Shown: piece by piece, positions 32,939-39,201 of the stretch
Layout: each line of letters starts with the position of its first letter
How positions within the stretch are numbered: the stretch's first letter is position 1
Assembly (NCBI RefSeq): GCF_001598915.1
Contig: NZ_BDAP01000001.1
Coordinates: 496,001 to 560,000, forward strand
Origin: Williamsia muralis NBRC 105860
Lineage (GTDB): Bacteria; Actinomycetota; Actinomycetes; Mycobacteriales; Mycobacteriaceae
Length of the DNA: 64,000 bases
Direction of reading: 5' to 3'
Notes under the pieces: model-generated
Databases searched by the model: none
Told to the model about the DNA's origin: nothing
The model's input: the letters and a program-made list of their open reading frames with translations, nothing else
Program-made: the position numbers and the translations under genes

Positions 32939-34660
32939 TCAGAGATGTTGCGCACTGGCGGTTGCCGGTTCCGCTGCCCGGTACGCGAGCCATCCACCGA
33001 ACCGGGTGATGTCCGTAGCGTCGGACAAAGCCGCACGCTCACAACTGAATCCGATCATCGACCGTCCGCCGGTGAGCTGCACCGATCCCAGCATCATCGG
33101 CGCGGGCAATGTGGTGAGAAACGACGACAGTTCGGCCGGGGCCATCCGCCAGACGCCTCCGGTGATCGAACTGCCGCCGTTGATCGTGCGCACCAGTCCC
33201 GGTTTGGGTGGCGTGGTCGGCAGGGCATAGAGAGCATAGGTGGGGGCGGTGTGATCGGCGCCTACGAATCGCGCTCCCCGGCTTGTCATCTCGTGCTCGA
33301 GTGGCTGGCCTGGTAGGTGTGCGCCGACGACGAACACGTCCGACCACGATGCGCCGATGGATTCGATCCACGGCGCCCCTTGTGACAACGGCGGTGTTGC
33401 ACCCGCAGCTGCAGCCGGCTCTGGCGTCTCGACAACTCGGCGGGCCACGTCGAGGGCGACCGCATCGTGGAAGGCGCCCGCCAGCACAGTGACCCCGAAC
33501 TGGGCGGGTCCGGCGGTTCCCGCGGGGACGGCGACACCGCACATGTCGAACAGGTTCGCGAAGTTGGTGTAGGTGCCGAGCCACGAGTTCACGCCGATCG
33601 GGTCGTCCTCGACTGCTGCGATCGATGGATGTCCTGGAACGGTCGGAACCAGCAGCGCGTCGAAATCCGACAGCAACGCAACGCTTTCGGCGCGCAGACG
33701 CTCGAGCCGCTCCAGGTCGCGCGCCATCTGAGACGCCGTCACTGTTCCCGCCGCCGAGATCACGCGGCCGACGGTGGGGTCCACTGTGTCCCGATGCGTG
33801 TCGACGAAGGCGCCGACAGCCGCGTGGCGTTCGGCGACAAGTCCACCCTCGTAGAGCATGCGTGCTGCCTCGAGAAATGGTTCGAATGGAATTGCTTGTA
33901 CAACAACACCGTCCGCGCGCAGTCGGTCCACGACTCGGTCAAAGGCCTCACTCCAGCCCGGGGACATCGCCGGCAACTCGCGCGGTATCGCAACGCGCGG
34001 GACGGGAGGTGCGGCCAGTGGTACGTCGTGTGGGAGAGCGCGTGTGCCCTCGCCTCCGGACATGAACCCCATGGCCGTGTTGGCAGTCTCGATGTCTCGG
34101 GCCATGATGGTCACCGCATCCCACGATCGGCATGCGGGCACCAGCCCTCGCGTGGACACCAGACCCAGAGTGGGCTTGATCCCGACTATGCCTCCGAGCG
34201 CTGCCGGTACCCGGCCTGAACCGGCCGTGTCGGTACCGATCGCGATGTCGGCGAGTCCGAGCGCGACGGCCACCGCCGATCCTGAGCTCGAACCACCCGC
34301 GATGTGGTCTGGTCGTCGCGCGTCCCGGACACCTCCGTAAGGGCTTCTCTGCCCGACCAATCCGGTGGCGAACTGGTCCATGTTCGTCGACCCCACGACG
34401 GTGGCACCTGCGGCCCGTAGGCGTGCGACCGCGTCGGCGTCAACGCTCGCCGGCGCAGCGGCGTACGAGGGGCATCCGGCGGTGGTCGGCAGTCCGGCGA
34501 CATCGACGTTGTTCTTGACTGCCAACAGCATTCCCGCGAGCGGGCCCGTCGCTGTCGCCGCGGCCTTGATCACGTCCTCTCGGGCGAGGAGGTCGATCCA
34601 GATCTCGGACCGATCGAGTGTGTCCACTGCCTCGAAGAACGCGTCCACTCGTTCGGTCAT
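32939..34660 (-). CDS. atzF: Allophanate hydrolase
   Basis: The 573-residue protein has the amidase-signature core in its first 440 residues: Lys in GMLLAVKNNVDVAG, GGSSSGSAVAVALGLADIAI and GTDTAGSGRVPAALGGIVG with the Ser-cisSer-Lys triad. It also has the C-terminal domain specific to allophanate hydrolases (VFVVGAHLPGQPLEHEMTSR, LYALPTTPPKPGLVRTINGG, ITRFGGWLAYRA). It splits allophanate to ammonia and CO2, the last step of cyanuric acid and urea-amidolyase routes. The ATG overlaps the stop of the preceding hydrolase gene (ATGA). It is the last gene of the operon. Confidence 0.92.
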   Translation of the reverse strand: MTERVDAFFEAVDTLDRSEIWIDLLAREDVIKAAATATGPLAGMLLAVKNNVDVAGLPTTAGCPSYAAAPASVDADAVARLRAAGATVVGSTNMDQFATGLVGQRSPYGGVRDARRPDHIAGGSSSGSAVAVALGLADIAIGTDTAGSGRVPAALGGIVGIKPTLGLVSTRGLVPACRSWDAVTIMARDIETANTAMGFMSGGEGTRALPHDVPLAAPPVPRVAIPRELPAMSPGWSEAFDRVVDRLRADGVVVQAIPFEPFLEAARMLYEGGLVAERHAAVGAFVDTHRDTVDPTVGRVISAAGTVTASQMARDLERLERLRAESVALLSDFDALLVPTVPGHPSIAAVEDDPIGVNSWLGTYTNFANLFDMCGVAVPAGTAGPAQFGVTVLAGAFHDAVALDVARRVVETPEPAAAAGATPPLSQGAPWIESIGASWSDVFVVGAHLPGQPLEHEMTSRGARFVGADHTAPTYALYALPTTPPKPGLVRTINGGSSITGGVWRMAPAELSSFLTTLPAPMMLGSVQLTGGRSMIGFSCERAALSDATDITRFGGWLAYRAAEPATASAQHL

Positions 34661-35319
34661 CCTCGACTCCCAGCGCTGTGTACATGAACCATGGGCTCCA
34701 ACTCCTCGATCAGGGGCGCAAAGGCGTTGTCCAGGTGAGCGGCGTGAGAAGTGCCGGGCAGAACTCGCACTTTCAGGTCGAGGGCACCCGCCAGTGCGTT
34801 GACGGACTCGTGGCGCACACGCGGTGACTTGGCTCCGACGGTGAGGGTGACCGAAGACGAATTGATCGTGAGGGGGCGAGGTTCGAATCGTCGGAACATG
34901 GCAAGTTCTCGGGCAACCGTCTCCGAGTTCGATGTGGTCATCGAAGGGTCCCACCCGGGACCGTAGAGCTCGTGGCCGAAACCCGGCACCCCGTGTTCGT
35001 CGAACGCGGCGACGACGGGGTCCAGCAATCCTGGCATCAGTGACCCGGCCGCCGGTTCGTGCAGGACCGCCGCGGTCATCGTGACACCGCGGGCAGCCAA
35101 CTCCAAGCCCAATGTCGCCCCGCCGCTGACGCCGAAGACCACCGCGCCGTCACACAACGGTGCCAGGAACTCGACTTCGGCCGCCAGGTCGCCGGAGCGG
35201 GGCCGCTGGGGGATCACGACGTGAAACCCTCTCTCGGACAACACTGTGGATGTCTGCTCCCATACGGGCGGGTCCACGGCCACGCCACACAGCAAGACGG
35301 CTCGCGACTGCGTTGTCAT
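34657..35319 (-). CDS. Alpha/beta hydrolase inserted in the cyanurate operon
   Basis: The 220-residue protein has the strand [20 protein letters not shown], the nucleophile elbow [16 protein letters not shown] (Ser present) and a late His in [17 protein letters not shown], so the hydrolase triad is plausible. Both ends overlap neighbours by 4 bases: after the biuret hydrolase gene and before the allophanate hydrolase gene. No alpha/beta hydrolase is a known step between biuret and allophanate. It may release a side group from a derivative or handle carboxybiuret, or serve another substrate; this is open. Confidence 0.83.
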
Positions 35320-36023
35320 GAGGCGGCGAGCGATGCACTCGGGCCCAGCGCCGACAACAACTGCTCCGAGGTGGCAGTCGCGCCGAACACCCCACCCTGC
35401 ATCGCGATCATGCTCAGCGCCGCCACATGGTGGCCGTGGTCGGTGGCGCCGGTGCAATCCGACAGCACCAGGCACTCGAAGCCACGATCATTGGCCTCAC
35501 GCATGGTGGTGTGGACGCAGACATCAGTGGTGATCCCGGTGAGGATGAGGTTCGTGATACCCGCACTGCGCAAGATCAGGTCCAGGTCGGTGGCGTAAAA
35601 GGCGCCCTTGCCGGGTTTGTCGATGATCGGTTCTCCGGGCAGTGGTGCAACCTCCGGGACGATCTCCCACCCGGGTTCGCCGCGCACAAGGATGCGTCCG
35701 CACGGTCCGACCGAACCGATCTCGGCGCCCGCGCGCTCCGAACGCCACCGCTTGTTCTGCGGGAGGTCGGTCAAGTCGGGACGGTGCCCTTCGCGGGTGT
35801 GGATCACCAGCATTCCTGCGTCGCGACACGCAGCGAGTACCTGGGCGGTCGGGGCGAGGCCGGCACGGGTCAGCGAGAGGTCGTAACCCATCGAGTCGAC
35901 GTATCCGCCGGGCCCGCAGAAGTCGACCTGCCAGTCGATGAGTATGAGCGCGGTGCGCCCGACGTCGAGAACACCGTCGTAGGGCCAGGCGTAGGGATGA
36001 GCGTCAACGGGGTGCGTGGTCAT
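35316..36023 (-). CDS. biuH: Biuret hydrolase (isochorismatase-family cysteine hydrolase)
   Basis: The 235-residue protein shows the catalytic Asp in [20 protein letters not shown], Lys in [19 protein letters not shown] and Cys in [20 protein letters not shown] (near residue 167). The strings [39 protein letters not shown] and [14 protein letters not shown] follow the BiuH pattern closely and distinguish it from nicotinamidases. It hydrolyses biuret to allophanate and ammonia. It sits between the ring-opening amidohydrolase and allophanate hydrolase genes, overlapping its neighbours by 4 bases on each side, in the order of the pathway. Confidence 0.93.
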
Positions 36024-37102
36024 CGAGGTGTGCCTTCCGAAGTGGTGCTGTACGGGGTGATCTGGGGTGGATCTACTTCGTAGACGACGGTCACGCTGCC
36101 GCCCCCGGGTCGTCCCTGATGTTCGGCGCCGCCCGAGACATACACCGCCCCGTCGCCTTTGATGGCCGCAACAAGGGCGCCGACAGCAGCTCGTGCGTGG
36201 CGCGTCGCGTTGATGTCAGAGTCGGTGAGCATCGTGTGCCGCAGGTTGCGGATGGTTCCGGACGGATCGGCTTCGGCCTTGACGAACAGCTGTCGAATGC
36301 GGCCGCCACGCTCGGACACCAGAGCGGCAGCGGAGAGAAGCGAATCGAGGTCGTAGGCGTCCTTCATCTCGGTGTGCAAGGCGCGCAACGAGTTCGCGGC
36401 CTTGTCGCTCTCGCCGACCACCAGCACGTGGCACGATTTCAGTTCGGCTCCGGCACTTGCCGACGCCCGGTTCGACCAGGCGTGGCGCCGTCCCTCGAGT
36501 GCAGCCAGAGCGGTGTCGGTGTCGATCTCGTCGAGCGCCAGGGCGATTCCCAGCGAACTCGCTGCGCGCGAACGCGCCATCGACTCATAGGTGTCGTCGC
36601 TGACCGGCTCGATGCCGAGGGCACGCAGTCCCGCGATGTCGGTGGAGGTGAGCAGCGGACACTTGACCAGGACAAGGTGCACATCGTCGCCTGCGATGCC
36701 GAGTTCGGCGACCAGCTTGGCCACTGTGTCGCGGACCGACTCCATGTGCGCGACGCGCCCCAGCTCGGCCGGGGGGATCGCCGGGGTGGTTCCTGCGGCG
36801 GCGACCAGACCACGCTGATGACGGGGATCGACCCGATCGTCGGCCACCAGTAGGTTCACATGCGGTGCGATGACACCTTCGGTGCCTCCCGAGAACACGG
36901 TCACCGCAGCTTCTTTGAGGTGGGGTTCCCATGCCGCAGAGGCAAGCGTGCGGCTGAAGTCGTTGACGCAACCGTTGCCCTCGGTCTTGCCGACCACGGC
37001 GAGCACATCATCGGTGCCGAATCCGTTGTCGGCCAACAGCTCGAGGGCGCTGATGTCGTCGGGCCCCGTGGTGGGCGCGGTGAGCAGGCGGACTGCGGTC
37101 AT
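36020..37102 (-). CDS. atzD: Cyanuric acid amidohydrolase (AtzD/barbiturase family)
   Basis: The 360-residue protein is made of three similar units, the fold unique to this family; each carries a Ser/Lys pair: [39 protein letters not shown] and [19 protein letters not shown]. The family opens cyanuric acid to carboxybiuret, which decarboxylates to biuret, or barbituric acid to ureidomalonate. Coupled biuret and allophanate hydrolase genes strongly favour cyanuric acid. The symbol is given on that context; residues that separate cyanurate from barbiturate specificity were not checked. It starts inside the end of the permease gene (ATGA). Confidence 0.88.
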
Positions 37103-38496
37103 GCCACGACCTCCTTGTCCGACGTCGGTTCAGCGGTCGGGGTGTCGTCGCCGCGTCGTCGTGGCGGTAGGTGATGGAAGACGATGTTGAGGACAAATGC
37201 GGTGATCACAGCGCTGCTGATGGCGTTGCCGAAGATGATCTGCACCTCGGCGGGGAAGTCGGTGTAGATGTCCTTGGAGACCACCGGGATCATCCCTGCG
37301 CCCAACGCCAGCGAGACGATCATCAGGTTGTCGTTGTTGCGGTAGTCCACCTTCGACAGGGTGCTGATGCCGGTGCCCGCGACGAGTGCGAACATCACCA
37401 GACTGACCGATCCGATGACTGCCCCCGGCAGGCTCGCGATCGTCTCGCCGAGCTTGGGGATCAACGCGAAGATGATCAGGAGCGCACCGGCGAACACCAC
37501 GACCGAACGGCTCGCGATCTTGGTGATCCGGACGAGACTGACGTTCTGCGCAAAGATGGTGTCGGGGAACGAGGTCCATACTCCCGCGAGTACTGCGGAC
37601 GCACCGTCGGCGGCCAGGCCGCGGGCGATACGCGGAGGGTCCGCGTCGATGCCGGTGGTCTCGGAGATCGCCATCATGTAGGCGGTCGACTCGATGAAGA
37701 TCACGATCATCACGATGCTCATGGAGATGATCCCGGCGAGGGGGAATGTCGGTGCGCCGAAGAAGAAGGGTTGCGGGATCCCGAACCACGCTGCGTCACC
37801 CACACCGGAGAAGTCCGTCATCGACATCGCCGCAGCCGCGATGGTTCCGAGGACCAGAGCGGTGAGAACGGCTGCCTGCCTGATGAATCCGCGGCCGTAG
37901 CGCATCAGGGCGACCACGACGATGATGATGCCCAAAGCCAGCGACAGTCGTTCACCGTCGGCCGGGCCGTCGTCGAAAATCATCGACACTGCTTTACCGA
38001 TGAGCGACAACCCGATCATCGTCACCGCTGCACCGCGCACGACCGGAGGAAAGAACCGCAACAGCTTGGAGAACGGCACCGCCATGAGAAGAGCGAAGAT
38101 CCCGGCACCGATCATCGACCCGTACACCGCATTCAGGCCGTATTCCTGCCCGATGAGAATCATCGGGGTGACGGCTGTGAACGAGGCACCTGCCACGACC
38201 GGCATCCGCGCACCCAGGATGTTGCCGATGCCGGCGGCTTGGATGATGGTGACGATGCCGGCGATCAGCAGGTCGGCGTTGACCAACAGTCCGATGGTGC
38301 GTTGGTCCAATCCGAGTGCGGCACCGAAGACAAGGGGAACGGTGACGCACCCCGTGTACATGACGATCACATGCTGAGCGCCGAAGGCTCCCGTGCGCCA
38401 CAGGCCGGACATGCTCGGCGTTCGCGACGGGGTAGGTAGGAAGTTTCGCATAAACAATTCGTATACGTTCTGTGTGTCACGGCCGTTATCAACCAT
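37099..38496 (-). CDS. NCS2-family permease, probable cyanurate importer
   Basis: The 465-residue membrane protein has the nucleobase-cation symporter-2 layout: GAFGAQHVIVMYTGCVTVPL near the start, VAGASFTAVTPMILIGQEYG in helix 3, the substrate-binding helix IFIESTAYMMAISETTGID (Glu near residue 272) and SFPDTIFAQNVSLVRITKIA. Relatives import xanthine, uric acid or uracil; cyanuric acid is a close analogue. It is the first structural gene after gntR. The start is uncertain: ATG 38496 or ATG 38451, neither with a clear ribosome site; the operator at 38458 lies between them, favouring the second, perhaps leaderless. Confidence 0.9.
   Translation of the reverse strand: MVDNGRDTQNVYELFMRNFLPTPSRTPSMSGLWRTGAFGAQHVIVMYTGCVTVPLVFGAALGLDQRTIGLLVNADLLIAGIVTIIQAAGIGNILGARMPVVAGASFTAVTPMILIGQEYGLNAVYGSMIGAGIFALLMAVPFSKLLRFFPPVVRGAAVTMIGLSLIGKAVSMIFDDGPADGERLSLALGIIIVVVALMRYGRGFIRQAAVLTALVLGTIAAAAMSMTDFSGVGDAAWFGIPQPFFFGAPTFPLAGIISMSIVMIVIFIESTAYMMAISETTGIDADPPRIARGLAADGASAVLAGVWTSFPDTIFAQNVSLVRITKIASRSVVVFAGALLIIFALIPKLGETIASLPGAVIGSVSLVMFALVAGTGISTLSKVDYRNNDNLMIVSLALGAGMIPVVSKDIYTDFPAEVQIIFGNAISSAVITAFVLNIVFHHLPPRRRGDDTPTAEPTSDKEVVA
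38458..38469. promoter_or_regulatory. GntR operator 1 before the cyanurate operon
   Basis: TTCGTATACGTT holds the palindrome CGTATACG (38460-38467), 7 bases upstream of ATG 38451 of the permease. FCD-type GntR proteins commonly bind GTATAC-centred palindromes. A second copy lies 63 bases away. On the minus strand TATACG could itself be the -10 element. Confidence 0.6.
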
Positions 38497-38520
38497 TACA
38501 TTCGAGTTAACGGGCGAGAG

Positions 38521-38532
38521 TTCGTATACGAA
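38521..38532. promoter_or_regulatory. GntR operator 2 before the cyanurate operon
   Basis: TTCGTATACGAA is a perfect 12-base palindrome with the same CGTATACG core, placed 4 bases after the gntR stop codon. The 63-base centre distance, six helical turns, would put both sites on one face of the DNA and allow looping or cooperative binding. Confidence 0.62.
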
Positions 38533-38535
38533 GTG

Positions 38536-39201
38536 CTACTTGATCAGTCGCCGAACCAGATCTTCGTCTTTCTTCACGTGCTCATCCATCAGATAGCCCG
38601 CCTGAAAGGGGGAGCCGTCCAGAACGGCACCGGCAATCGCCGTGTGGTCACGCCAGCATCCGTCGGCCCTGCTCTCCACGTCGCGGTCGAAGACCCACGC
38701 GATGCGTCGCAGCGTGTGTTCGAGAGTGCGGGCCAGTTCGTGGTTCCCGGAAGCCTCGGCCATCAGCGTGTGGAAGCGAAGCACCAGGGGAGGGACCTGA
38801 TCATGTTGCTTCAACCGCTCGGCCTGGGTTCCCGACTCGATGACGAGACGCAGTTCGGCGGCGAACTCACCACCGCTGCGCTCGGCAGCCAGTCGGGCAC
38901 CGAACACCTCCAGGCCTCGACGGACCTGCATCAACTCGATAGCGTCGGCCCGTGACGCGCCTGACACGGTCGCGCCCTTGTAGCGCTCGAGGTTGACGAA
39001 TCCTTCGCTCTGCAACTGCGACAGCGCCTCTCGGACCGGTACCCGCGACACCCCGAATCGTTCGGCGAGCATGGGTTCCGGGAGACGGTCGCCCGGTTGC
39101 AGCTTTCCATCGAGAACGTCGTCGCGGATCGCTGCAGCAATCGCTTCCCTGGTCGCCGGCTCTCTTGTCATCGCAGCGGCGACATCCGAGTCGGTGTGCA
39201 T
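38536..39201 (-). CDS. GntR-family (FCD) regulator of the cyanurate operon
   Basis: The 221-residue protein has the GntR winged helix: LQPGDRLPEPMLAERFGVSR then VPVREALSQLQSEGFVNLER, followed by an all-helical FCD ligand domain with the metal/ligand His pattern (FHTLMAEASGNHELARTLEH). It lies just upstream of the permease gene on the same strand; two CGTATACG palindromes fill the 39-84 base gap. It probably represses the operon until the ring compound or an intermediate binds. No operator copy is seen in front of gntR itself. Confidence 0.92.
   Translation of the reverse strand: MHTDSDVAAAMTREPATREAIAAAIRDDVLDGKLQPGDRLPEPMLAERFGVSRVPVREALSQLQSEGFVNLERYKGATVSGASRADAIELMQVRRGLEVFGARLAAERSGGEFAAELRLVIESGTQAERLKQHDQVPPLVLRFHTLMAEASGNHELARTLEHTLRRIAWVFDRDVESRADGCWRDHTAIAGAVLDGSPFQAGYLMDEHVKKDEDLVRRLIK

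Follow-up and report, generated by a model that had tools for sequence, protein, structure and literature searches.

Cyanuric acid is the junction at which the breakdown of triazine herbicides, melamine and pool disinfectants meets. Here we compare a probable cyanuric acid operon of Williamsia muralis NBRC 105860 with the closest described systems. The operon lies on a 64,000-nucleotide stretch (contig NZ_BDAP01000001.1, positions 496,001 to 560,000 of the forward strand; hereafter the window) and comprises, behind a GntR regulator gene, the genes of an NCS2 permease, a ring opener of the cyanuric acid hydrolase (AtzD) type, a biuret hydrolase (BiuH), an alpha/beta hydrolase (ABH) and an allophanate hydrolase (AtzF).

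In Pseudomonas sp. ADP, the atzDGEHF operon likewise has AtzD first and AtzF last; carboxybiuret is deaminated there by AtzEG, after which AtzH acts (PMC6219798), and neither BiuH nor ABH is annotated. The atzD-biuH cluster of Rhizobium leguminosarum/johnstonii 3841 (pRL10) resembles the window in having AtzD and BiuH, the biuret route and a GntR gene nearby. It carries an ABC transporter, a formamidase, a second isochorismatase-type hydrolase and a small cupin, with no atzF among the genes shown, whereas in the window an NCS2 permease, ABH and AtzF are encoded in a single coupled run of genes. In the triuret pathway of Herbaspirillum (TrtA/TrtB/BiuH/AtzF), a dedicated enzyme, TrtB, processes carboxybiuret before BiuH (PMC7948467), while the cupin considered a TrtB candidate finds at best marginal matches in the window's genome and those of its 19 relatives, and ABH sits in a comparable slot. 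The AtzD and BiuH pairs of Rhodococcus sp. Mel and Gordonia sp. KTR9 most likely represent the same operon type, because a structure of the Mel enzyme (6XJM) is the closest solved relative of the window BiuH and both organisms fall in Group I of an earlier AtzD classification (PMC3758960); the literature excerpts name only AtzD and BiuH for them, and the likeness is drawn from those descriptions. Since an uncharacterised AtzD-BiuH cluster has already been mentioned in Gordonia KTR9 (PMC5806882), the pathway is known in kind, and what the present locus adds is a compact AtzD clade, NCS2 uptake, ABH and a control region. The excerpts on AtzD-BiuH pairs are silent on ABH, on paired operators and on a GlnR-like array.

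Ring opener and probable biuret route

We consider it very probable that the locus is a nitrogen-scavenging cyanuric acid operon using the biuret route, a reading drawn from AtzD-type residues in the ring opener and from BiuH and AtzF, which both score above their curated cut-offs and are both present in 20/20 genomes of the clade. The NCS2 permease would import cyanurate, the AtzD-type enzyme would open the ring to carboxybiuret, and ABH would probably act on this unstable compound, most likely by speeding its conversion to biuret. BiuH would then yield allophanate and ammonia, and AtzF would convert allophanate to ammonia and CO2. The initial annotation, made from the letters of the window, had drawn the same gene map, with overlaps of 4 bases, and the coordinates and Pfam matches bear it out: the five operon genes, with gntR ahead, are all on the minus strand and 4/4 intra-operon junctions overlap by exactly 4 bases. 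At the last junction, the two closest relatives of the window have a 1-base overlap. Its reading of the operon as a path from cyanuric acid to ammonia and CO2 is also supported by the specificity residues and the BiuH and allophanate hydrolase scores; it had not covered what the extra hydrolase might do, nor the GlnR-like array or the way in which the operators are phased.

Against PF09663, the ring opener scores 373 bits (cut-off 25). At five specificity positions, AtzD has R195, T321, R325, G345 and G346, while barbiturase (Bar) has N, H, K, V and S (PMC3758960). In an alignment of 66 proteins, the window enzyme has R179, T300, R304, G324 and G325 at these positions, all five of the AtzD type. 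This RTRGG signature is found in 23/66 rows, of which 20 come from the window and its relatives and the other three are AtzDs of proteobacteria, those of Pseudomonas ADP and Rhizobium 3841 among them, whereas 40/66 rows have the barbiturase pattern NHKVA or NHKVS and three have neither (RERGG, SMKSG and RMKTG). One of the NHKVS proteins, L054 (whose gene is also L083), aligns over its full length with the solved barbiturase 5HWE (E 9e-224). The RERGG protein, encoded in a genome of the g3 group defined below (L052 1501-2568, G610), is an AtzD relative of 42% identity that belongs neither to the compact clade nor to the barbiturase type. According to a second paper (PMC4051656), glutamine occupies the Arg188 position in the barbiturase subgroup, which conflicts with PMC3758960 and with our alignment, where that subgroup has Asn. 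The three Ser-Lys dyads of the window enzyme are K39/S71, K147/S216 and K275/S323; all six residues occur in 65/66 rows, barbiturases too, hence the dyads give no diagnosis of the substrate.

The relatives were collected by an AtzD search in a sample of 401 genomes of the family. It gave a match in 43 genomes, of which 20, the window's included, have the compact type (62-100% identity) and 23 have matches at 37-42%. A tree of 43 of the 66 aligned proteins (the rows that are compact or named, one in three of the remainder and a few selected additions) places the 20 compact AtzDs in one clade with support 100/100, separate from both barbiturases and proteobacterial AtzDs; owing to long branches, the deeper placement of this clade among the other groups is unsettled. 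Group I of PMC3758960 contains Gordonia (KTR8 in the legend, KTR9 in the accession list) and Rhodococcus Mel and has the AtzD-type signature, with no characterised member named. It is probably the compact clade.

BiuH scores 422 against the equivalog NF050097 (cut-off 370), is identical to the Rhizobium 3841 BiuH at 150/227 aligned residues and agrees with it at 13/13 active-site positions checked, including the catalytic D36/K142/C175, the substrate residues F41, K145 and Q215, and Y53 and V218. A second rhizobial hydrolase, which we take as TrtA, departs from BiuH at Y47, Y53 and V218, and the window protein has Y and V where that hydrolase has N and I. The gene is above the cut-off in all the clade genomes and lies away from the operon in two of them (G700, G520). 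AtzF scores 610 against TIGR02713 (cut-off 511), combines a PF01425 amidase domain with PF21986 (AH_C) and has the allophanate hydrolase 4GYR as its best solved relative. The window protein has K, S and S at the positions that correspond to residues 91, 165 and 189 of AtzF. In just 7/20 loci, the window's included, does atzF adjoin abh. The window's genome holds a second allophanate hydrolase above the cut-off outside the operon (G000:C2:578817-580406). In addition, four genomes of the Gordonia-containing group g5 have a second BiuH-like gene (~260 bits, below the cut-off) adjoining an AtzF-like gene that is also below the cut-off (G587:C1:302940-304888, G716:C72:67070-69012, G700:C1:3419841-3421823 and G624:C2:3612835-3614821); these pairs possibly belong to another ureide pathway.

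Several points weigh against assigning cyanurate as the substrate. The AtzD equivalog NF052395 is passed only narrowly (362, cut-off 360), the ring opener shares 42-43% identity with its counterparts in Pseudomonas ADP and Rhizobium 3841, and the AtzD literature consulted for this clade, in excerpt, yields no assay of any member. The same protein family includes barbiturase, NCS2 permeases carry nucleobases, and the best model for the window permease is the xanthine permease TIGR03173 (416, cut-off 414; the general NCS2 profile TIGR00801 gives 301, cut-off 292), all of which would suit a barbiturate operon of the oxidative pyrimidine route, with a barbiturase as ring opener and a ureidomalonase as amidase. 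We nevertheless reject this reading as highly improbable: the five specificity residues are AtzD-type, the amidase has AH_C and passes the allophanate hydrolase cut-off, that route has no place for BiuH, and the barbiturase-type genes lie on a separate branch. The initial annotation had named residues typical of barbiturase as part of what would speak against a cyanuric acid operon; the window has RTRGG, and barbiturase residues were not found. The operon might instead serve another ureide, such as triuret, biuret or a natural product of purine oxidation, with cyanurate opening secondary. Rhodococcus Mel BiuH, encoded beside an AtzD gene, is a slow biuret hydrolase with some slow triuret activity, and both triuret and cyanurate are possible products of uric acid oxidation (PMC7948467). 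Moreover, the BiuHs of g3 genomes have I at the V218 position in 10/10 cases, as in TrtA, which counts against a clean divide between BiuH and TrtA there. This explanation seems improbable to us, although less so than the barbiturate one, as AtzD is present in 20/20 loci (which were found by AtzD) while BiuH is missing from two, and as the window BiuH keeps Y and V at the positions that distinguish it from the presumed TrtA.

The alpha/beta hydrolase

For ABH (220 aa), PF12697 is the sole Pfam match. Ser65 (GVSGG), Glu88 (HEP, with HES in one row) and His192 are invariant in 20/20 orthologues, and since the place expected for the usual acid is occupied by an invariant Ser165, Glu88, which follows strand 6, is likely the catalytic acid. 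The predicted structure is an alpha/beta hydrolase, for which Foldseek ranked zearalenone lactonases first; the acid of zearalenone lactonase is a Glu after strand 6. It must be held against the proposed triad that it rests on conservation and on a moderate model, built from 3 sequences with a predicted local distance difference test (pLDDT) score of 69.8. VIA-align placed many hydrolases level with one another at about the same Z, among them RutD of the pyrimidine rut pathway (RutB/RutD), which does not stand out from the rest of the alpha/beta hydrolases listed; the fold match is of a generic kind and does not support ABH as a RutD orthologue. No match was returned by a literature search on RutD terms, by a comparison of the ABH sequence with solved structures (E up to 10) or by a search of a plasmid collection with ABH.

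In the family sample, 60/401 genomes match ABH, 21 of them at E<=8.7e-87 and the other 39 at 2.6e-6 or weaker, the latter being treated as unrelated alpha/beta hydrolases. The 21 genomes are the 20 with compact AtzD and one more, G620. In a sample of the phylum, 17/396 genomes match at E<=0.001; the only two strong matches (E about 1e-108) are genomes of the AtzD clade and the other 15 lie at 3.6e-6 to 9.2e-4, so that ABH was rejected as a general actinobacterial gene. In 19/20 loci, the window counted, its gene shares a 4-base overlap with biuH or atzD. Because strong matches are nearly restricted to genomes of the AtzD clade and G620, ABH on this pattern belongs with the ring opener, also in genomes whose BiuH gene lies elsewhere. 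The locus of G620 is ~91% identical to another (L079) on both flanks and lacks L079 6705-8947, which holds almost the entire permease gene and the greater part of atzD; the gap, at L123 8626-8669, leaves gntR and abh behind and appears as a natural loss of the pathway.

Slot, co-occurrence and chemistry suggest that ABH may act on carboxybiuret, replacing the TrtB (PMC7948467) or AtzEG (PMC6219798) that handle it in other bacteria, and AtzH with the latter; we would put this at a little under an even chance. A small cupin lies near the AtzD and BiuH genes of rhizobial clusters and is taken, from this place, as a TrtB candidate. In the 20 clade genomes it has at best marginal matches (9/20, E 1.3e-4 to 5.3e-4). 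A point against the assignment is that carboxybiuret decays spontaneously with a half-life of ~20 min (PMC7948467), so that no enzyme is strictly needed.

Putative operators and a GlnR-like array

Between gntR and the operon, CGTATACG occurs at 38460-38467 and 38523-38530, a start-to-start distance of 63 and its only two occurrences in the window. By chance 0.26 matches would be expected, and two or more were found in 3/100 shuffles, which taken alone is modest; the pair is nonetheless strong because two GTATAC sites are present in 20/20 loci. This conservation agrees with the initial annotation, which had seen the two palindromes as the operon's own operators. Its distance of 63 bases holds as well, and its placing of both between gntR and the operon depends on the permease start, failing if the frame begins at 38496 and holding if it begins at the ATG at 38451. 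The latter start is probably correct, since an in-frame ATG lies 6-7 bp past the proximal palindrome in 9/9 loci of the window's genus (g1) and g5, the window included, and since in 5/20 loci (L064, L066, L067, L069 and L079) the end of the proximal palindrome is reached without any start codon; with this start, both palindromes are non-coding. In the third group, g3 (probably Rhodococcus), the first ATG past the proximal palindrome is 40 bp on in 9/11 loci.

A single perfect copy of the 12-mer TTCGTATACGAA exists in the 5.54-Mb genome, and GntR is therefore probably a local regulator. In the window, g1 and g5, the operators are TTCGTATACGAA (with a one-base variant in L064) and AACGTATACGAA; in g3 they are TTTGTATACAAA-like pairs, some with one or more outer bases differing. 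The GntR recognition helix is near-invariant. Several residues flanking it (P41R, P43V/T and M44D) separate the CG from the TG operator class, but so do 30 columns in all, and no conclusion from residue to operator is drawn. No further operator, as autoregulation might involve, was found within 300 bp upstream of gntR in the 20 loci, and no clear -10 or -35 hexamers of a core promoter were seen by eye.

Start-to-start spacing of the operators is 63 in nine loci (the window and 8/8 relatives in g1 and g5), 84 in eight, and 73, 83 and 85 in one each. At 10.5 bp per turn, spacings of 63, 73, 83, 84 and 85 amount to 6.0, 6.95, 7.9, 8.0 and 8.1 turns; if a turn is set to 10.4 or 10.6 bp, the largest deviation from whole turns rises from 0.10 to 0.17. 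Between the operators lies an array of the form nnnAC-n6-nnnAC-n5-nnnAC-n6-nnnAC. Counted by the A of AC, its boxes are found at offsets -38 in 20, -27 in 16, -17 in 19 and -6 in 18 of the 20 loci, the average over offsets being 2.3 loci. All four are present in 14/20 loci and at least three in 19/20; the window has 3/4, its second box being GTAAT. The GlnR motif of M. smegmatis is AC/T-n9-AC, with AT permitted in the first half only (PMC3662644), and it is matched by the second pair of the window, ATAAC-n6-GACAC. The phasing suggests looped repression around a nitrogen-control site. GntR/FCD would repress transcription through a pair of operators that share one face of the DNA, plausibly by looping, until a pathway compound relieves repression, and GlnR might bind the array between them and activate transcription under nitrogen limitation. 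If true, such nitrogen-plus-substrate control would account for the timing of operon expression, and operators at 63, 73 and 84 bp would, if they loop, offer a natural series for the study of phase-dependent repression. This picture has evidence against it too. There are only three classes of spacing, which is suggestive and no proof of looping; the 20 loci are related and their counts not independent; AC is also frequent at offsets -56 (10/20) and -8 (9/20); the first pair of the window (AC-n9-AT) fails the GlnR motif, having AT where AC is required; and of the two amt genes of the genome, the second (L125) is without such a motif.

Esterases and lactonases at large share the fold of ABH, and two genomes keep ABH with AtzD while BiuH is elsewhere. 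It is distinctly possible, though at less than an even chance, that ABH has no part in carboxybiuret decarboxylation and instead acts as a hydrolase on an upstream triazine or a by-product in ester, amide or lactone form, or that it cleaves carboxybiuret to allophanate and carbamate, bypassing BiuH. No upstream triazine enzyme is among the five operon genes, however, the four-base coupling of ABH with biuH or atzD is nearly constant, and the retention of BiuH in every clade genome suggests that biuret forms. The array, in turn, lies where -35 elements may lie and might be part of the core promoter or the site of another activator, a reading favoured by the first pair of the window, which fails the GlnR motif. 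We think this rather unlikely, but of appreciable probability, given the 11/10/11-bp periodicity of the AC boxes, with half sites resembling those of PMC3662644, and given TTAAC-n6-GCAAC upstream of one amt gene (L124), with GAAAC 22 bp on. That ABH, with a Ser65-Glu88-His192 triad, would be a new carboxybiuret enzyme replacing TrtB and AtzEG/AtzH in this lineage, and that a GntR loop changing by whole turns (6, 7, 8) would enclose a GlnR site, is as a joint proposal tentative and rather doubtful. The very probable cyanuric acid operon offers a compact actinobacterial system with every step, a deep AtzD branch and a candidate enzyme for the carboxybiuret step. A literature search for papers with two or more of cyanuric acid, GlnR and GntR gave 82 matches, and of the 15 listed none contained cyanuric acid.

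Features and distribution

Coordinates of the operon and its control region, in positions of the window
Feature	Position	Strand	Basis
AtzF, allophanate hydrolase, 573 aa	32939..34660	-	TIGR02713; amidase and AH_C; relative 4GYR
ABH, alpha/beta hydrolase, 220 aa, candidate for carboxybiuret processing	34657..35319	-	PF12697; S65, E88, H192
BiuH, biuret hydrolase, 235 aa	35316..36023	-	NF050097; active-site residues
AtzD-type cyanuric acid hydrolase, 360 aa	36020..37102	-	PF09663; NF052395; three Ser-Lys dyads; RTRGG
NCS2 permease, probable cyanurate uptake	37099..38451 (open reading frame extendable to 38496)	-	TIGR03173; TIGR00801
Proximal putative GntR operator AACGTATACGAA (minus strand)	38458..38469		proximal GTATAC in 20/20 loci
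GlnR-like array	38474..38510	-	window TTAAC/GTAAT/ATAAC/GACAC; 4 bp off the proximal operator
Distal putative GntR operator TTCGTATACGAA	38521..38532		only perfect copy in the genome; distal GTATAC in 20/20 loci
GntR/FCD regulator, 221 aa	38536..39201	-	Pfam GntR and FCD above cut-off

The gene order gntR-NCS2-atzD-(biuH)-abh is kept in 20/20 loci, with biuH not at the locus in two; a permease homologue and a GntR orthologue upstream of it are present in 19/19 relatives. In 9/11 g3 loci, ~1.3 kb separate atzD from biuH; the only such insert tested (L071 6564-7856) is a cytosine/purine permease gene (PF02133). Compact AtzD occurs in 3/9 genomes of the window's genus. A wider search of the order found the AtzD family in 104/397 genomes, and the best-scoring 30 loci were barbiturase-type in 30/30 cases. 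Against a plasmid collection, the operon DNA gave some match in 274 records, none covering 80% in one place. One locus (L094, NZ_JNYV01000002.1) is titled Kitasatospora arboriphila NRRL B-24581, and its operon proteins are 96-99% identical to those of the window; the Kitasatospora label of this record is probably wrong.

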